A DNA stretch of 64,000 nt from Halobacillus kuroshimensis DSM 18393. Lineage in GTDB: Bacteria > Bacillota > Bacilli > Bacillales > Halobacillaceae. The DNA lies in assembly GCF_000425705.1 (NCBI RefSeq), contig NZ_AUDY01000010.1, positions 1-64,000 of the forward strand. Reading direction: 5' to 3'. The position numbers were made by a program, and so were the translations under genes. Shown piece by piece: positions 33,273 through 43,342 of this stretch. Below the pieces are notes generated by a model. It was not told the origin of the DNA. It saw only the letters and a program-made list of their open reading frames with translations, and ran no database searches. Numbering within the stretch: position 1 is the stretch's first letter; the number at the start of each line of letters is the position of its first letter.

Positions 33273-34274
33273 ATGAATGTAACAATATATGATGTAGCAC
33301 GCGAAGCGAACGTTTCAATGGCAACCGTTTCGCGGGTCGTCAACGGGAACCCGAATGTGAAACCCGCCACAAGAAAGAAAGTACATGATGCGATTGAACG
33401 GCTCGGGTACCGTCCAAACGCAGTAGCGAGAGGTCTTGCGAGTAAGAAGACAACGACAGTAGGTGTCATTATCCCGGATATCTCCAGCATTTTCTTCGCA
33501 GAACTGGCACGGGGAATCGAAGACATCGCAACCATGTACAACTATAACATCATTTTAAGTAACTCTGATCAGAACAAAGACAAAGAGCTTCATTTGATCA
33601 ATGCCATGCTCGGCAAGCAGGTAGATGGGCTGATCTTTATGGGTGGCGACATTACTGATGACCACATCCGTGAGTTCAAGACGTCTTCTGTACCGATTGC
33701 GCTGGCGGCGACTGTTGATGAGTCACAGGAAACGCCATCTGTAAACATTGATTATGAAGAAGCGGCTTATGATGCGACGAAGATGCTTCTTGAATCCAAT
33801 AACGAGCGGATTGCCTTCATTTCCGGACCGGAAAATACATTAATCAATACAAGAAAAGTAACAGGCTACAAACGTGCCATGGCTGAAAAGGGCGTCGAGG
33901 ATGCTGACAAATATATCGTAACTGGAGATTATTCCTACGATTCCGGTCACGAAGCGCTAGAGCAGATCCTTGAGATGGACGAACAGCCGTCAGCCGTTTT
34001 CGTTTCTTCTGATGAAATGGCCCTCGGTGTTATTCACGGAGCACAGGACCGCGGCATCCGTGTACCTGAGGACATGGAAGTGTTCGGTTTTGACAATACA
34101 CGTCTGGCTACCATGGTGCGCCCGACGCTGTCCACTGTAGTACAGCCGATGTATGACATCGGAGCAGTGGCTATGCGTCTCCTTACGAAATTCATGAACA
34201 AAGAAGAAGTAGAGGAAAAGAACGTGGTTCTTCCACACCGAATTATTGAAAGAAACTCAACTCAGCAGAAATAG
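33273..34274 (+). CDS. ccpA: Catabolite control protein CcpA
   Basis: 333-residue LacI/GalR-family regulator, cytoplasmic dimer. With HPr phosphorylated on Ser46 as co-repressor it binds cre sites and sets carbon catabolite control. The N-terminal [23 protein letters not shown] is followed by the hinge ALG-type helix ([19 protein letters not shown]), which also contacts the minor groove, and by the sugar-binding-like core with [13 protein letters not shown]. The spacing and neighbours (aroA, motP, motS) are those of B. subtilis. GAGGAGG precedes ATG 33273. cre sites elsewhere in this window are its probable targets. Confidence 0.96.
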
Positions 34275-35962: not shown

Positions 35963-37135
35963 CTACAAGGAGTTGAATTTCTTTTGGTTATGAATCAGCT
36001 GCAGTGCTTTTTCCAACAGCTTATTGTTCTTTTCTGTAATTTCTTCTCTTCTCGGTATAGGTTTGAAAGCATTTGGTGGATCGTTCCATGCATCGGGCAG
36101 AGAAACGGGGGATTCTTTTTCCCATTTCTTCAGCCACTCGACAGGAAGGGGACCTGTAAAAGGCTCTTCTTCCAACATGACTTTCCAAATTTGAGCCCAT
36201 GCTCTCGGGACAACACGCCAGATGTCATATCCGCCCCCGCCAAGAGCCACCCAGCGCCCTTCACAGTATTGATGAGCCAATTCGTGGGCAATCGCAGGTA
36301 TGCGCTCGTAAATGGCCATCGTGGAGCTTAGATGGGTGAGGGGATCAAGAAAATGAGCATCCGCCCCGTTTTGTGTAATAATGATGTCGGGCTTGAAATA
36401 ATCGGTGATCTCCTTGAAAGCGGATTCATAAACGTGCAGAAATGATTCATCTTCAGTGAAGGCATCGATCGGTAGATTAAAAGAGTATCCGTACCCTTCC
36501 TTCAATCCTCGTTCATTCACATGTCCGGTGCCGGGAAACAGATAACGCCCTGTTTCGTGGATGGACAGGGTGCAGACGTTGGGATCATCATAAAAGGCCC
36601 ACTGTACACCATCGCCGTGATGGGCGTCTGTATCAACATACAGGACCTTGTAATCGTATTTCCGGCGGATGTATTTAATACCTACGGCCCCGTCATTGTA
36701 GATACAGAAGCCTGAGGCTTTGCGTTCAAATCCATGATGCAGGCCGCCACCCAGATTAAGGGCATGGGTGACATCACCGCCCAGAACCGCATCAATAGCA
36801 GACAATGTACTGCCCACAAGCAGCTGAGAAGCCTCATGCATGCCTTTAAACATTGGTGTATCTTCTGTTCCTATTCCGTATTCAAGCCCTTCCTCTTCCG
36901 ACAGATTACCTTCTGATGCTTTTTTCACTGCCTGGATATATGCTGGACTGTGGGCAAGGCGCAGTTCTTCCTCTGTTGCCATTCTGGGAGTGATCAAGTG
37001 ATTTTCCTCAAGCATTCCTGCTGCATCCAGTAGTTCCTTTGCCAGGACGACTCTCATCTGATTAAATGGGTGGTCATCCCGGAACCGGTAGGAAGTAAAA
37101 TCGTTGGAGTATACAAACCCTGCTTTACAAGTCAT
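35963..37135 (-). CDS. acuC: Acetoin utilization protein AcuC, histone-deacetylase family
   Basis: 390 residues of the class I/II deacetylase fold. Zinc and catalytic segments: HHGFERKASGFCIYNDGA, DTDAHHGDGVQWAFY and LGGGGYDI. In B. subtilis AcuC removes the acetyl group that AcuA places on acetyl-CoA synthetase AcsA, restoring activity. Start ATG 37135 (with GGAGAG 6 bases away) is chosen over a frame extension further upstream, giving an 11-base overlap with acuB. Last gene of acuABC on the minus strand, convergent with motS. Confidence 0.92.
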   Translation of the reverse strand: MTCKAGFVYSNDFTSYRFRDDHPFNQMRVVLAKELLDAAGMLEENHLITPRMATEEELRLAHSPAYIQAVKKASEGNLSEEEGLEYGIGTEDTPMFKGMHEASQLLVGSTLSAIDAVLGGDVTHALNLGGGLHHGFERKASGFCIYNDGAVGIKYIRRKYDYKVLYVDTDAHHGDGVQWAFYDDPNVCTLSIHETGRYLFPGTGHVNERGLKEGYGYSFNLPIDAFTEDESFLHVYESAFKEITDYFKPDIIITQNGADAHFLDPLTHLSSTMAIYERIPAIAHELAHQYCEGRWVALGGGGYDIWRVVPRAWAQIWKVMLEEEPFTGPLPVEWLKKWEKESPVSLPDAWNDPPNAFKPIPRREEITEKNNKLLEKALQLIHNQKKFNSL

Positions 37136-37778
37136 AGGGACTCTCCGGTTTCTTAGGCCACAAAACTTCATAGCCTGCTTCCTCCAGATCTTGAACAGTT
37201 GGAAGTGGGTTCATCGTCTGAATCCGGACGACGACAACTTTGTAGTTGGCATCCGGCTTATAAGGATAAATGAGGATGGAGCTGATATTCACCTTTCGTT
37301 TTCCGAATACTTGCGTCACTTGAGGAAGGATCCCTGGCTTGTTGATTACTTTCACTTCAATCTGCGAACTCTGGACGTGAGTGCCCGTTAATTGAATCAA
37401 CGTATAGAGCATGTCTTTTTCAGTTACAATTCCGACCAGTTTTCCGTCTCTGGTGACAGGAACACAGGCAATTTCCTGTTCATAAAAGATGGATGCTGTT
37501 TCTTCGACAAAATCAAGGGGATGCACGGTCGTTACCGGATAGGTCATGATGGAGCGGATTGGATACTGCAGTTCCTCCTGCCCGGTGTCTTCTTCCAAAA
37601 TCGATGGACTGGCATCTCTGACATCACGGTCAGAAACAATACCTATGACGGCTCGGTCCTCATCTATAATTGGGATATGCCGGATATGGTGTTCATGGAG
37701 AAGTTTCAACGCTGTTTCAATCGTTTCATCCGGAGTAAGTGTAATCACATGGTCCTTCATGATTTCTTCTACTAACAA
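37125..37778 (-). CDS. acuB: Acetoin utilization protein AcuB (two CBS domains + ACT)
   Basis: 217 residues. Two CBS domains (about 1-65 and 75-130, with HIRHIPIIDEDRAVIGIVSD and TRDGKLVGIVTEKDML) form a nucleotide-sensing module, followed by an ACT-like domain (about 138-205). Function in B. subtilis is not well established beyond membership in the acu operon. It starts at TTG with GGAGG 7 bases upstream, 5 bases after acuA, so translation is probably coupled. Confidence 0.9.
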   Translation of the reverse strand: MLVEEIMKDHVITLTPDETIETALKLLHEHHIRHIPIIDEDRAVIGIVSDRDVRDASPSILEEDTGQEELQYPIRSIMTYPVTTVHPLDFVEETASIFYEQEIACVPVTRDGKLVGIVTEKDMLYTLIQLTGTHVQSSQIEVKVINKPGILPQVTQVFGKRKVNISSILIYPYKPDANYKVVVVRIQTMNPLPTVQDLEEAGYEVLWPKKPESPYDL

Positions 37779-37783
37779 TTCCG

Positions 37784-38431
37784 CTACCTCCTCAGCTGGC
37801 GATTTCGATGCCTCGTTAAAAAGCGCAGTTGATCAAATGTCTCCACTGATGATTCAGGAACCCGGCTGCCTACTCTGACCATCAGGCAGTTGGCTGGATG
37901 GGATATGATTTCAGGATCGTCGGTGGGGGAAGGGGTCAATCCGCCTGCGGCCATCATCTTTTCCATGACCTTTCGATAATCCCATATGTTCAGCCCTGTC
38001 CCTTTCAAGTCCCAATGCCAGTAATATTCGGTGGAGATAATAATGTAATTTTCCATATAGTCATCCATCATGGAAAGTTTCAAGAGACGTGAGCCAATCC
38101 GGTGTCCACGGAATTCCGGGCTGACTTCAATGGCACCCAGTTCAATTAAATCTTCCATGCTGCCTTCCGACCACCGTTCCAAAGGATCTGGATGCAGGTA
38201 GGTCACATAGCCGATGATCTCTTCACTGTTTCTTGCAATGATGATCCGGCCTTCATCGAAATCCGCAATGCTTTTTACAGCTTCAAATTGTTTTTCCGGC
38301 GGACGGAAAGCGATAAGGCCTTCGTTAAACGTAAAATGTGACAATTCGTCTGATGTCAGCGGTCCTTCAACAATGATCGGTCCATGCTCGGAGCTGAAGG
38401 ATTCGCTGTAATAAGTTTTTTCATGATTCAT
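37784..38431 (-). CDS. acuA: Protein acetyltransferase AcuA (GNAT family)
   Basis: 215 residues with a GNAT core (about 50-170): the acceptor strand SPEFRGHRIGSRLLKLSMMD contains the acetyl-CoA loop RGHRIGSR. In B. subtilis AcuA acetylates and switches off acetyl-CoA synthetase AcsA. Here acsA is not beside it. AGGTGG stands 8 bases before the ATG, and a good promoter lies 44-71 bases upstream. First gene of the acuABC operon. Confidence 0.9.
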   Translation of the reverse strand: MNHEKTYYSESFSSEHGPIIVEGPLTSDELSHFTFNEGLIAFRPPEKQFEAVKSIADFDEGRIIIARNSEEIIGYVTYLHPDPLERWSEGSMEDLIELGAIEVSPEFRGHRIGSRLLKLSMMDDYMENYIIISTEYYWHWDLKGTGLNIWDYRKVMEKMMAAGGLTPSPTDDPEIISHPANCLMVRVGSRVPESSVETFDQLRFLTRHRNRQLRR

Positions 38432-38474
38432 TCAGTCACCACCTGAAAAAGAGATTCATAGAGCGATTGTTTCT

Positions 38475-38502
38475 ATTATACAACAAAATATGGGATTGTT
38501 AA
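38475..38502 (-). promoter_or_regulatory. Sigma-A promoter of acuABC
   Basis: On the minus strand: TTAACA (plus 38497-38502), 16 bases, TATAAT (plus 38475-38480). No clear cre was found in it. Confidence 0.7.
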
Positions 38503-38511
38503 TTGTTCTCC

Positions 38512-38542
38512 AAAAAGAAAACCAGCCCATGGCGGGCTGGTT
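38512..38542 (-). terminator. Terminator of the class A PBP gene
   Basis: AACCAGCCC with GGGCTGGTT, followed on the minus strand by TTTTCTTTTT. It separates the PBP gene from the acu promoter. Confidence 0.85.
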
Positions 38543-38550
38543 TAATTCAT

Positions 38551-41500
38551 TTATTCTTCATTTTCCGTAGTTTCATCTCCGCTGGACTCGTCGGTGTTTC
38601 CGTTATCTGAGTCTTCTTCCGGTGGTGTATCGTTTGAACCATCATCGGAATTTCCTTCTGAATCGTCGGATTCACCACCTTGATTATTGTCATTAGCGGG
38701 ATCATTATTCTCTTCTGTACTTTCATTTGACTCATCTGCATTGGAGTCGTTCGTGTTTTCGTTATTGTTGCCATTGTTACCATTGTTACCTTCGCTGCTG
38801 TTTTCATTACTGGAATCATTCGTATCCTCTTCCGGCTCCGGTTCCGGCTCTGGGGCTGGCTCAGGATCCGGCTCTGGTTCCGGCGCCCCTGGATTTCCGA
38901 CCGTCACGGAAGAAGAAAGACTGGATGATTGACCGAAATAATCCACCGCTCGAACGGCGTAGACGCCATCGCCTGAAAAGTTGTACGACGTGTTCACTGT
39001 GCTGCCAAGCAGGGAATAGCTGCCACCCGGCTCAGAAGCGCGGTAGATCCGGTACCCGACGACATCATTGCTTCCGGATGCATTCCAGCTGATTTTTGAC
39101 CCGCTGGCAGAAACAGATCCCGGAGCGGAAGGAGCCTTGCCATCATTATCAATGGACGACACGGTAGATCCGATCGAAGAAGAGGAAGGCAGAGCTACAT
39201 TGCTCCATCGTGATGAATTAGGAATCAATGCTCTTAATTCTTCAGAGGACGTCAATCCTTCCTCTTCCAGCCATTCAGGACTCAATGTGACACCGCCGCC
39301 GTCTTTGACGAATTCACGCGGTGTATCCGGCCCAGCGATAACCAATTTATCTTTCACGCTTACGAAGTCGCCGCCGATCAAGCTGTCATCGGCGTTTGAA
39401 GGAGCATAGTCGGCATCAAAAATGTCGCTGTCTACAAGACCTGCGGACGAGCATAAGTCAGATGGCAGCATCCCTGATGTCGCACAGTAGGAACTTGTAA
39501 CAAGGCCGCCCGGGTTCTCGAAATCATTGCTTGGAGCCATCAGTTCCGGCCGTAATTCCGTGACTGCATTGACTACATCGGCCCAAAGTCCCTGTGTCCG
39601 CTGGTTGTAGTTCATGTTCTGCATGTTGCCTTCATCAAACCCTGTCCACATTCCAACAGAGACATTCGGGTTCGTAGCAACAAACCAAGAGTCTTTCGTC
39701 ATTTGAGAAGTACCGGTTTTACCAGCCCACTCGACACCGCGGTCAGCAAGCAGCCCGCGTACACGGGAGCCTGTGCCGTAATCTAATACATCTTTCATGA
39801 CATCCAGAGTAAGGTAGGAGGCCTGCGGGCTGAATACTTCTGTTTCTTCTGCTTCGTGCTGATAGACGGTTTCCCCGTCTTTGGTTTCAATTTTTTCGAT
39901 CATGTACGCATCGACGAATTTACCCATGTTGGCAAAAGTTGCGAACGCATTCACATTCTGCTCGACGGATATGCCGTAGGTTAATGCGCCGAGGGCCATG
40001 GATTCATTCGTATAGTCATCCTCGTGTAATCGATCTTTCATCCCCATTTTCTCTAAATAACTTTTCACGGGGTTATCGCTCTTAATCTCATTGTACTGTT
40101 TAACAGCCGGCACGTTATAGGACTGGGCCAGCGCATATCGGGCACTGACAAACCCTTTGTGGCTTCTGGAGAAGTTTCGTACTTCTCCACCGATGCGATA
40201 GTCATAGGGGACATCTGCAATGACGGATCCCGGCTGGGCAGCCCCCATGTCAAAGCTCGGACCGTAGACGAGCAGCGGTTTCATTGTACTGCCGTTGGAG
40301 CGGTAAGCATGGGAAGCATGGTTAAGATTCTTTTTATCGAAGTCATATCCGCCGATGAACCCATGAATTTTCCCTGTCGAGTTTTCAATTATTATACTTC
40401 CCAGTTGAAGTGGGATTGTCTTTGTGTCTCCAGTAGGGTCACCGTTCTCATCCCTGATCGGAACAGTTTTCCATGGCCAGGATGAAGGTTCTGTATAGGA
40501 GTCCTTCACATCCTGCATGGCATCATAGACTTCTTTATCCAGTGTTGTATGGATTTGATAACCGCCGGAGGACATTTCCCGCTCTGCCAGTTCATCGTAC
40601 TCCTGGGCCAGTTCTTCATCGTTTTCCAGGTCTTCCTGGGTATGACCGTTTTCTTTCATTAAATAGTCTTGGATTTTACCTTTCGCACGTTTCTGCACTT
40701 CCTGGTTGATAGCGGGATACTTGCTGATCGCTGTCGGTTTAGCATCAGCCAGCGTTTCATCGTTCAACGAAAAAGCCATCGCCTCATCGTATTCCGCTTT
40801 CGTAATGTATTCCGCTTCCAGCATACGTTCGAGTACTTCGTGCATCCGGTCTATGCCGGGTTCCAGTCCTGCTTCGTCCTTAATCGTCCCATCATTGTTG
40901 AAAGGGGTATAACCGAAGGGGGATTGTGGCAGGCCGGCAATAAAGGCCGACTGGGCCAAGGAGAGTTCACCGGCATTTACGCCGAAAATGCCCTGTGCAG
41001 CTGTTTGTACACCCGCTACATTCTGCCCGTTCGCATTCCGCCCGAACGGGACGATGTTCAAGTAAGCTTCGAGTATTTCTTCTTTTTCAAAGAAACGCTC
41101 GATACGAAGGGCAATGAGCATTTCCTTGGCCTTCCGCTCAAATGATACTTCGTTCGTTAAAATCTGGTTTTTAACGAGCTGCTGAGTAAGTGTACTCCCA
41201 CCGGTTTTTACAGAGGAGTTCGTCACTTCCTGAACGACCGCACGCATGACGGCTTTCGGAACAACACCTTGGTGCTCTTCGAAATACTCGTCTTCCGTAG
41301 CGATGACAGCATTTCTTAAATAATCACTGACCTGATCGAGTTCAACGACCTCCCGGTACAGGTCGGAACTGACATCTCCAATTTCTGTTTCGTCCGTGAA
41401 TAACATCGTGGACGTCTGCGAATAATTATAAATATCGTCTTCCATATCCGCCTGGCTCCGTACTGGCTCGTCCTTTACGAGGGAAGCAAAGTATCCAGCT

Positions 41501-41667
41501 CCGACACCGCCGGCGAAAAACAAACCGATCACACCGATAATGATAAAAAATAAGATGACGTTCCAAACGACATCGTATGTAATCCGTGTGTTTTTCTGTA
41601 TACGCCCCTGCTCCCATAAAGAGCGGAAATCTATCTTATTTCGACCGTTCTTCTGGTTATTAGACAT
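38551..41667 (-). CDS. Class A penicillin-binding protein (PBP1A type) with FN3 domain and acidic tail
   Basis: 1038 residues, anchored by one helix (about 34-62) with the rest outside. GT51 glycosyltransferase: catalytic E125 in ATEDEYFEEHQG and TGGSTLTQQLVKNQ. Transpeptidase: S460 in STMK, SYN in QSYNVPAVKQY, and KTGTS from K650. A fibronectin III-like domain (about 838-920) follows, and then a tail of more than 100 residues made first of PEPEPEP and later of N, D, E, S and G. It polymerises and crosslinks peptidoglycan. B. subtilis PonA is about 914 residues and lies elsewhere. In B. subtilis, acsA lies beside acuA. Confidence 0.92.
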   Translation of the reverse strand: MSNNQKNGRNKIDFRSLWEQGRIQKNTRITYDVVWNVILFFIIIGVIGLFFAGGVGAGYFASLVKDEPVRSQADMEDDIYNYSQTSTMLFTDETEIGDVSSDLYREVVELDQVSDYLRNAVIATEDEYFEEHQGVVPKAVMRAVVQEVTNSSVKTGGSTLTQQLVKNQILTNEVSFERKAKEMLIALRIERFFEKEEILEAYLNIVPFGRNANGQNVAGVQTAAQGIFGVNAGELSLAQSAFIAGLPQSPFGYTPFNNDGTIKDEAGLEPGIDRMHEVLERMLEAEYITKAEYDEAMAFSLNDETLADAKPTAISKYPAINQEVQKRAKGKIQDYLMKENGHTQEDLENDEELAQEYDELAEREMSSGGYQIHTTLDKEVYDAMQDVKDSYTEPSSWPWKTVPIRDENGDPTGDTKTIPLQLGSIIIENSTGKIHGFIGGYDFDKKNLNHASHAYRSNGSTMKPLLVYGPSFDMGAAQPGSVIADVPYDYRIGGEVRNFSRSHKGFVSARYALAQSYNVPAVKQYNEIKSDNPVKSYLEKMGMKDRLHEDDYTNESMALGALTYGISVEQNVNAFATFANMGKFVDAYMIEKIETKDGETVYQHEAEETEVFSPQASYLTLDVMKDVLDYGTGSRVRGLLADRGVEWAGKTGTSQMTKDSWFVATNPNVSVGMWTGFDEGNMQNMNYNQRTQGLWADVVNAVTELRPELMAPSNDFENPGGLVTSSYCATSGMLPSDLCSSAGLVDSDIFDADYAPSNADDSLIGGDFVSVKDKLVIAGPDTPREFVKDGGGVTLSPEWLEEEGLTSSEELRALIPNSSRWSNVALPSSSSIGSTVSSIDNDGKAPSAPGSVSASGSKISWNASGSNDVVGYRIYRASEPGGSYSLLGSTVNTSYNFSGDGVYAVRAVDYFGQSSSLSSSVTVGNPGAPEPEPDPEPAPEPEPEPEEDTNDSSNENSSEGNNGNNGNNNENTNDSNADESNESTEENNDPANDNNQGGESDDSEGNSDDGSNDTPPEEDSDNGNTDESSGDETTENEE

Positions 41668-41696
41668 GAATAAAACCTCCTAAAAAATCCATCAAT

Positions 41697-41705
41697 ATTA
41701 TAACA
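41697..41705 (-). promoter_or_regulatory. Extended -10 promoter of the PBP gene
   Basis: On the minus strand TGTTATAAT, an extended -10 (TGN + TATAAT), 30 bases before the PBP start; its -35 is poor. It diverges from the tyrS T-box leader. Confidence 0.55.
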
Positions 41706-41814
41706 TACCCCTCTGTATTAAGACACGACGGGACTTGGGGATTTTGTTGCATTTTTTTTTGGAATGTGTTAAATATAGTACATAGTTTAATAAGTGTGCG
41801 TGGATGGATTGAAG

Positions 41815-42016
41815 TAGAATGAAGATCCCTGTTGCAGAGAGCTGACGGTTGGTGCGAGTCAGTACATATTGGATTTCGAATTACGACCCGGAGCATCTTC
41901 TGGTAGGAATCAGAAGACGGTGGAAACCGTTATCGATAGAAGTGGCACGTTTTTTATGTGCAACAAGGGTGGTACCGCGAAGACCTCGTCCCTTTTTCAG
42001 GGATGGGGTCTTTTTT
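41815..42016 (+). ncRNA. Tyrosine T-box leader of tyrS
   Basis: The T-box AGGGTGGTACCGCG is at 41967-41980. Stem I closes through GAAGAT (41821-41826) with ATCTTC (41895-41900) and contains AGAGAGCTGACGGTTGGTG. The likely specifier TAC (41882-41884) follows GAAT and codes for Tyr. The terminator stem (GACCTCGTCCCT / AGGGATGGGGTC, 41981-42011) ends in T. Uncharged tRNA-Tyr should favour the antiterminator and tyrS expression. Confidence 0.93.
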
Positions 42017-42031
42017 GTGTTCCGAATCTGA

Positions 42032-43342
<1,311 letters not shown>

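Follow-up and report, generated by a model that had tools for sequence, protein, structure and literature searches.

In Bacillus subtilis, acetyl-CoA synthetase (AcsA) is controlled by the products of the acuABC genes. The AcuA residues D82, E85, E97, E102, and E135, together with H139 and W140, are reported to bind or deprotonate K549, the catalytic lysine of AcsA (PMC11255334). AcuC deacetylates AcsA, and AMP-bound AcuB inhibits AcuC (PMC13121692). In addition, a steric lock imposed on AcsA by its own acetyltransferase was described for B. subtilis in 2024-2025 (PMC11910552). As reported there, AcuA inserts its C-terminal end (residues 203-210, RFYHRYMY) as a plug into the CoA site of AcsA; deletion of the final seven residues abolished the complex in pull-down experiments, and 1 mM of the tail peptide lowered AcsA activity by ~90% (PMC11910552). 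The cryo-electron microscopy (cryo-EM) work names R108, D255, R282, F283, and A303 as the AcsA contacts with AcuA, with R108 contacted by the main chain of the terminal Y210, and the AcsA segment 301-317 was protected upon AcuA binding (PMC11910552). Here we describe the acu locus of Halobacillus kuroshimensis DSM 18393, found in a stretch of 64,000 nucleotides (contig NZ_AUDY01000010.1, positions 1 to 64,000; hereafter the window), in which acuABC stand without acsA. We consider it likely that this is the AcuABC switch of AcsA with the gene of its target moved away, acetylation having been kept and the acetyl-CoA-independent lock having been lost or rebuilt.

Set against the B. subtilis AcsA-AcuABC system (9G7F, PMC11910552; AcuB, PMC13121692), H. 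kuroshimensis has the same four proteins, with acuABC in the same order beside motPS-ccpA, the same catalytic residues, and the same AcsA lysine motif. It differs in that acsA lies elsewhere instead of being adjacent to and divergent from acuA, the plug RFYHRYMY is replaced by a longer polar tail, and AcsA carries M309K. Relative to other Bacillales acu loci, in which acsA stands between acuA and a gene for a class A penicillin-binding protein (PBP), the order acuCBA, PBP, tyrS is the same and the acsA slot is empty in the window's clade. The missing gene is found on another contig of the window genome, G000 (G000:C5:10234-11940). It encodes 569 aa with B. subtilis AcsA (9g79, E 3.3e-285) as the nearest PDB entry, and its motif PKTRSGKIMRR is intact, with K546 corresponding to K549 of B. 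subtilis. G000 also encodes a paralog of 562 aa with 55% identity and the motif PKTQISGKVLRR (G000:C10:90900-92552, L011/L166) and, as a third AcsA-related protein, a 653-aa ligase with the motif PKTRNAKVMRR. The PKTQISGKVLRR ligase has one residue inserted in its catalytic motif and lies beside apparent ABC transporter genes. In G081 and in G123, the only AcsA relative that was found has this motif type as well.

The acu locus of the window was compared with those of 85 further genomes from the order, sampled at about one per genus, with the families in which acuA is not linked to acsA added. Among the acsA-linked loci, 53 of 66 read acuCBA, acsA, PBP, tyrS. The remainder comprise 12 without a PBP match beyond acsA, two of which end with their contig 0.4 kb (L143) and ~2.5 kb (L150) beyond acsA, and one without tyrS. 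All 19 loci of the unlinked families, the window included, read acuCBA, PBP, tyrS, and acuC lies between ccpA and acuA in every linked (66/66) and unlinked (19/19) locus. In the 43 named unlinked loci, a PBP match always starts ≤3 kb from acuA, and no acsA match occurs in the fetched stretch (0/43). Named members of this group are Halobacillus, Salimicrobium, Sediminibacillus, Virgibacillus, Lentibacillus, Oceanobacillus, Ornithinibacillus, Pontibacillus, Aquibacillus, Alkalibacillus, Filobacillus, Tenuibacillus, and Compostibacillus. Since the PBP gene is the usual next gene past acsA in linked loci, acsA went out and the PBP gene did not come in. The PBP gene is an ancestral neighbour of acsA and not part of the acetylation switch. 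A link between the PBP and acetylation was considered and rejected, given this ancestry, the terminator-like hairpin that follows the gene, and its absence from only 12 of 66 linked loci. The original prediction had described acuABC without acsA, a PBP gene beside acuA, and tyrS beyond, all of which was borne out by open reading frame (ORF) and domain calls. Its suspicion that acsA had moved proved correct, the gene having been found with its motif at a place common to the whole clade. Its view of the PBP gene as a newcomer in the place of acsA did not hold once the acu-tyrS interval was compared across related genera as it had proposed. In G061 (L091), acuA is a broken remnant adjoining an intact acsA, with acuB and acuC still present. 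The acu locus of G081 (L156, L394) is rearranged, without acuB, acuC, or acsA match, and the only AcsA relative of this genome at E 1e-60 is of the L011 paralog type (56%, motif PKTKISGKILRR).

Intact AcuA was found in 140 of 150 genomes of the order; by coordinates, acsA is a neighbour in 118 of these and lies apart in the other 22. The latter belong to families f1 (that of the window), f2, f13, f32, and f36 (18 genomes) and f25 (three genomes), together with G081. In a tree of AroA, CcpA, TyrS, and RpsD, the first five families (16 rows) form one clade with SH-aLRT support of 100, and f25 is placed elsewhere. The AcsA proteins of the clade also group as one, apart from second-copy paralogs of other genomes, and in the larger AcsA tree they fall in a 48-row group (support 94) with all 27 sampled linked rows of the order and three rows from outside it. 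The first AcsA tree omits L142 (frameshifted AcsA) and the duplicate L171; the second was built without L166 and with only 27 of the 64 linked rows. The new location is shared as well: across seven fetched loci with relocated acsA, including that of G013, a genome that lacks acuA, the surroundings hold a LysM-GH18 gene in 7/7, DUF3891 in 6/7, a tadA-type deaminase gene in 5/7, and dnaX in 3/7. Trees and synteny support a single departure, in which acsA would have moved out from between acuA and the PBP gene in the ancestor of the Halobacillus-Virgibacillus-Oceanobacillus-Lentibacillus clade for a site near tadA/dnaX, and the PBP gene would have become the neighbour of acuA by default. The acsA of f25 occupies a different place, beside a fumarase/aspartase-type lyase gene and an M19 dipeptidase gene in 3/3 genomes, and its departure is read as separate from the move in the clade.

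Within the order, the AcuA tail follows the same division. The canonical tail was defined by a single pattern, [RK][FY][MLI][YF], placed exactly at the C-terminus, with G061 and its broken acuA outside the census. It was found in 118 of 118 linked genomes and in none of the 22 others; among the named loci, 37/37 linked AcuA proteins and 0/43 unlinked ones have it. Linked proteins end in RFMY (104), RYMY (10), or one of four close variants occurring once each, and 117 of 118 are 210 residues long. Window AcuA, at 215 aa, is five residues longer and ends in the polar tail LTRHRNRQLRR, without the aromatic-Met-Tyr plug end of the B. subtilis type. Positions 208-209, which are F/Y and M elsewhere, are polar in all 14 clade rows that have them, two f13 rows being too short. 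Compared with the canonical tail, AcuA is longer by 5-7 residues in f1 and f36 and by 1-4 in f2 and f32, and shorter by 3-4 in f13, where it ends in LRFLNA or LRFLT without R-F-M-Y. The f13 tail was shortened independently. In f25, the change affects the last residue only (RYMI, KYML).

Part of the tail sequence may be read at the nucleotide level. In f1, f36, and the Virgibacillus-Oceanobacillus type, the 3′ end of acuA extends into a sequence that resembles the ribosome-binding site (RBS) of acuB. The RBS-like ends AGG AGG, AGG GAG GG, and CGA GGA GG correspond to the codons for RR, REG, and RGG, and the acuA-acuB gap in RBS-fused loci is 0-5 nt or a one-base overlap, as opposed to 11 to >100 nt in the 18 linked loci shown. 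For this reason, the argument from the conserved MREGL and RR tail ends to a function of the protein was given up. The plug is lost without RBS fusion in the deepest-branching families (f32 and f2), which suggests that plug loss came first.

AcsA probably remains the target of AcuA in the window's clade, as indicated by the retention of the AcuA pocket, AcuB, AcuC, and the AcsA lysine motif. The reported K549-binding residues of AcuA (D82, E85, E97, E102, E135, H139, and W140) are kept in window AcuA and in 16/16 clade rows, and all 18 clade genomes with AcuA also hold true AcsA. Across the order, this is the case for 139 of 140 genomes with AcuA, the exception being G081; the AcsA gene is frameshifted in two of them, G033 and G105. 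G033 had been a candidate for AcuA without AcsA and was rejected, as its acsA is in fact linked and frameshift-broken, and it was counted as linked; since acsA, acuC, motS, and rpsD are all frameshifted there in one stretch, poor assembly is suspected. To judge from this conservation, AcuA would still acetylate AcsA at K546, and AcuC, held by AcuB, would still reverse the modification. The alternative raised in the original prediction, another target for the acetylation pair, thus finds no support. The search that it proposed, for acsA and its lysine motif in the full genome, recovered both, but retention of PKTRSGK is a weak test of AcuA action, since the lysine is catalytic and three genomes without an AcuA match at E 0.001 (G013, G037, and G077) have the motif just as intact. 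Taking the kept motif as a sign of regulation is a trap that is corrected here. Outside the order, AcuA is accompanied by no AcsA at E 1e-190 in five genomes (G206, G179, G219, G224, and G190), and the best AcsA relatives in these five show 34-43% identity; the assemblies of G224 and G190 are in hundreds of pieces. All six AcuA tails of these genomes are non-canonical, as is that of G081. G206 (L293, L294) is a one-contig genome with a good AcuA and no AcsA relative above 37% identity. In G171, from another order (L292, G171:C40:3000-20000; L291), an AcsA paralog with 55% identity to window-genome AcsA and the motif PKTRSGKIIRR stands divergent beside acuA, while the true acsA is on another contig and the AcuA plug is canonical; AcuA may have a second target in this genome.

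On the AcsA side, position 309 (B. subtilis numbering), which lies within the docking segment 301-317, is K in 18/18 clade rows as opposed to M in 63/63 linked rows and in all outside-order rows printed. M is also replaced by R in the second copy of G007 and by K in G013, whose AcsA is that of the clade and which lacks AcuA. Columns that distinguish the clade number 36 in AcsA (35 of its 569 residues), compared with 4/215 for AcuA, 8/217 for AcuB, 6/402 for AcuC, 8/431 for TyrS, 2/352 for AroA, 2/333 for CcpA, and 2/274 for MotP, the AcsA comparison being made without L096 and L142 and the others without L085, L091, L096, and L142. This excess suggests either that AcsA went through an episode of accelerated change or that it was taken from another lineage.

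The genes of the clade no longer share an acuA/acsA control region. CcpA operator (cre) sites were scanned for with a consensus in the 200 bases upstream of each gene. Of the 18 clade loci, 17 have a cre-like site (≤2 mismatches) ahead of relocated acsA, and in 15 of these it lies 33-40 bases from the start (shuffled 15%); in the window genome it has two mismatches and lies 40 bases before acsA. Clade acuA has such a site in 2/16 loci (shuffled 17%) and, among named clade loci, in 9/43, five at -37 to -44 (shuffled 14%). Before window acuA, there is none within three mismatches in the 200 bases upstream. Linked acsA has a cre-like site in 26/49 loci at scattered positions, and linked acuA in 22/49 loci and 21/37 named loci. 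Since the shuffles were of single bases, these results are a hint only.

Several explanations compete with a relocated switch whose lock was lost or rebuilt. AcuA and AcuC could have switched to a new target, perhaps the PBP or a different acyl-CoA ligase (the L011 paralog, for instance). The occurrence of AcuA without true AcsA in G206, G179, G219, G224, G190, and G081, each with a non-canonical tail, speaks for this, as does the divergent paralog beside acuA in G171. We nevertheless hold such a switch to be very improbable in the clade, where every AcuA genome has true AcsA, the K549 pocket of AcuA is unchanged, and the PBP gene is an ancestral neighbour followed by a terminator-like hairpin. 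It has also to be considered that the ancestor gained a foreign AcsA by transfer, that the old acsA beside acuA was then deleted, and that the AcuA tail adapted to the foreign partner. The clade AcsA sits next to the linked rows in the 48-row group, as expected for a vertical gene, and no donor lineage is seen in the AcsA tree, so that we regard replacement as unlikely, even with the column excess of AcsA over AcuA, AroA, and CcpA and an AcsA stem of 0.25 as opposed to 0.13 for the marker genes. Transfer of AcsA does seem to occur, as the second copy of G007 joins f52 with a support of 99 (in the smaller tree, it stands beside the clade).

A closer rival is that acsA simply moved and the full control of the B. 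subtilis type, lock included, stays, with the tail change being neutral or compensated by docking of the longer polar tail at K309. All named AcsA contact residues and the acidic pocket of AcuA are kept, both sides of the interface turned polar together (AcuA 208-209 in 14/14 clade rows and AcsA M309K), and since the f1 and f36 tail ends can be read as the acuB RBS, their conservation needs no protein function. This account has to contend with the f13 tail, which is short of the canonical one and lacks R-F-M-Y, given that deletion of the last seven residues is reported to break the B. subtilis complex, and with the extension by 5-7 residues, which should disturb the reported contact between the Y210 main chain and R108. 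We see it as a real possibility that falls somewhat short of an even chance. The suggestion in the original prediction that the change could be only a relocation holds for acsA, which is indeed elsewhere with its motif, but not for the pair as a whole, as the AcuA tail and AcsA position 309 changed in the clade. At the opposite end, the pair may have lost the steric lock clade-wide: the genes were split, the plug was lost, the acuA 3′ end was later fused to the acuB RBS in several families, the AcsA dock gained a lysine, and acetylation became the sole control. We put this stronger version forward tentatively, as a real possibility but less likely than not. In the reading preferred here, that of a relocated switch, the changed plug and the loss of divergence from one region mean that the tight non-covalent lock was probably lost or rebuilt, and control would then be mainly by acetylation.

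Several observations weigh against this preferred reading. Within the order there are only ~3 independent events, and in one of them, f25, the last residue alone changed. The AcsA contact residues R108, D255, R282, F283, and A303 are conserved throughout the clade, although CoA uses this site too. The trees were all built quickly and carry SH-aLRT support only, and the long AcsA stem would also fit replacement from an unsampled lineage. Outside the order, where tails were read for 37 of 56 genomes with an AcuA match at E 1e-30, the canonical tail occurs in 7/16 linked and 8/15 unlinked genomes (AcsA at E 1e-190 or better), G154 and G177 being counted as unlinked with acsA 7-9 kb away, and in G171 the tail is canonical although acuA adjoins a paralog. 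A rule that unlinked genes have lost the plug was therefore rejected beyond the order. As tail and linkage are uncoupled there, causality is unproven, and the plug seems to track the presence and kind of AcsA better than it tracks gene linkage.

If the lock was indeed lost, the clade is a natural experiment in which the two modes of inhibition are taken apart, and it raises the question of whether the lock depends on co-expression from a shared promoter region. A large clade that manages without the lock would show that the lock is dispensable and whether selection keeps the lock or the acetylation. The linked and unlinked families also offer a ready comparison on whether an inhibitor that acts stoichiometrically has to be encoded from the same promoter region as its target. 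Neither a move of acsA nor AcuA tail variation in these genera was found in the titles and abstract starts among the matches listed, a search whose scope lies outside subscription journals, preprints, and supplementary files. A word search (conserv-, homolog-, Firmicutes) of PMC11910552 found no cross-species comparison.

Table 1. Features of the acu locus and its flanks in the window (positions are those of the window).
Feature	Position	Strand	Description
acuC	35963-37171	-	HDAC-like lysine deacetylase, 402 aa; Pfam PF00850 (histone deacetylase domain), 299.7 bits
acuB	37125-37778	-	CBS-CBS-ACT regulator of AcuC, 217 aa; E 2.2e-67 to G. stearothermophilus AcuB 9s4w
acuA	37784-38431	-	GNAT lysine acetyltransferase, 215 aa; E 4.4e-86 to B. 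subtilis AcuA, chain 9g7f_C (cryo-EM complex)
Altered AcuA tail	37787-37819	-	Codons 205-215, LTRHRNRQLRR vs xNRFMY-stop; final codons AGG AGG resemble acuB RBS
Promoter-like site, acuABC	38475-38502	-	TTAACA-16-TATAAT, 11/12 matches
Intrinsic terminator-like hairpin, between PBP gene and acuABC	38519-38543	-	11 pairs + T tract
Class A PBP gene	38551-41667	-	1038 aa; Transgly PF00912, 184 bits; Transpeptidase PF00905, 77 bits
T-box leader of tyrS	41792-41996	+	RF00230, 131.7 bits
tyrS	42044-43342	+	TIGR00234, 467 bits
ccpA, conserved flank	33273-34274	+	TIGR01481, 513 bits

Genes in the window were called from ORFs and from NCBIfam, Pfam, and PDB sequence matches (Table 1), which place no acsA in the interval from acuC to tyrS. 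On the far side of acuC, motP and motS stand with ccpA on the plus strand. As acuA and acuB are 5 nt apart and acuB and acuC overlap, acuABC are predicted to form one operon. The 119 bp between acuA and the PBP gene hold both the terminator-like hairpin and the acuA promoter-like site, which suggests that the PBP gene and acuABC are separate transcription units. In the alignment of window AcuB to 9s4w, the H and M taken for H87 and M189 of the G. stearothermophilus protein (chain index plus one), whose roles are described in PMC13121692, are kept. Among named genomes, the five closest relatives of window AcuA are all from Halobacillus, at 79-83% identity. The window PBP has both domains of a class A PBP, the glycosyltransferase 51 and the transpeptidase domain, and its C-terminus (38551-38930, minus strand) is an extended low-complexity tail of very acidic character, with many E, D, N, and S residues.

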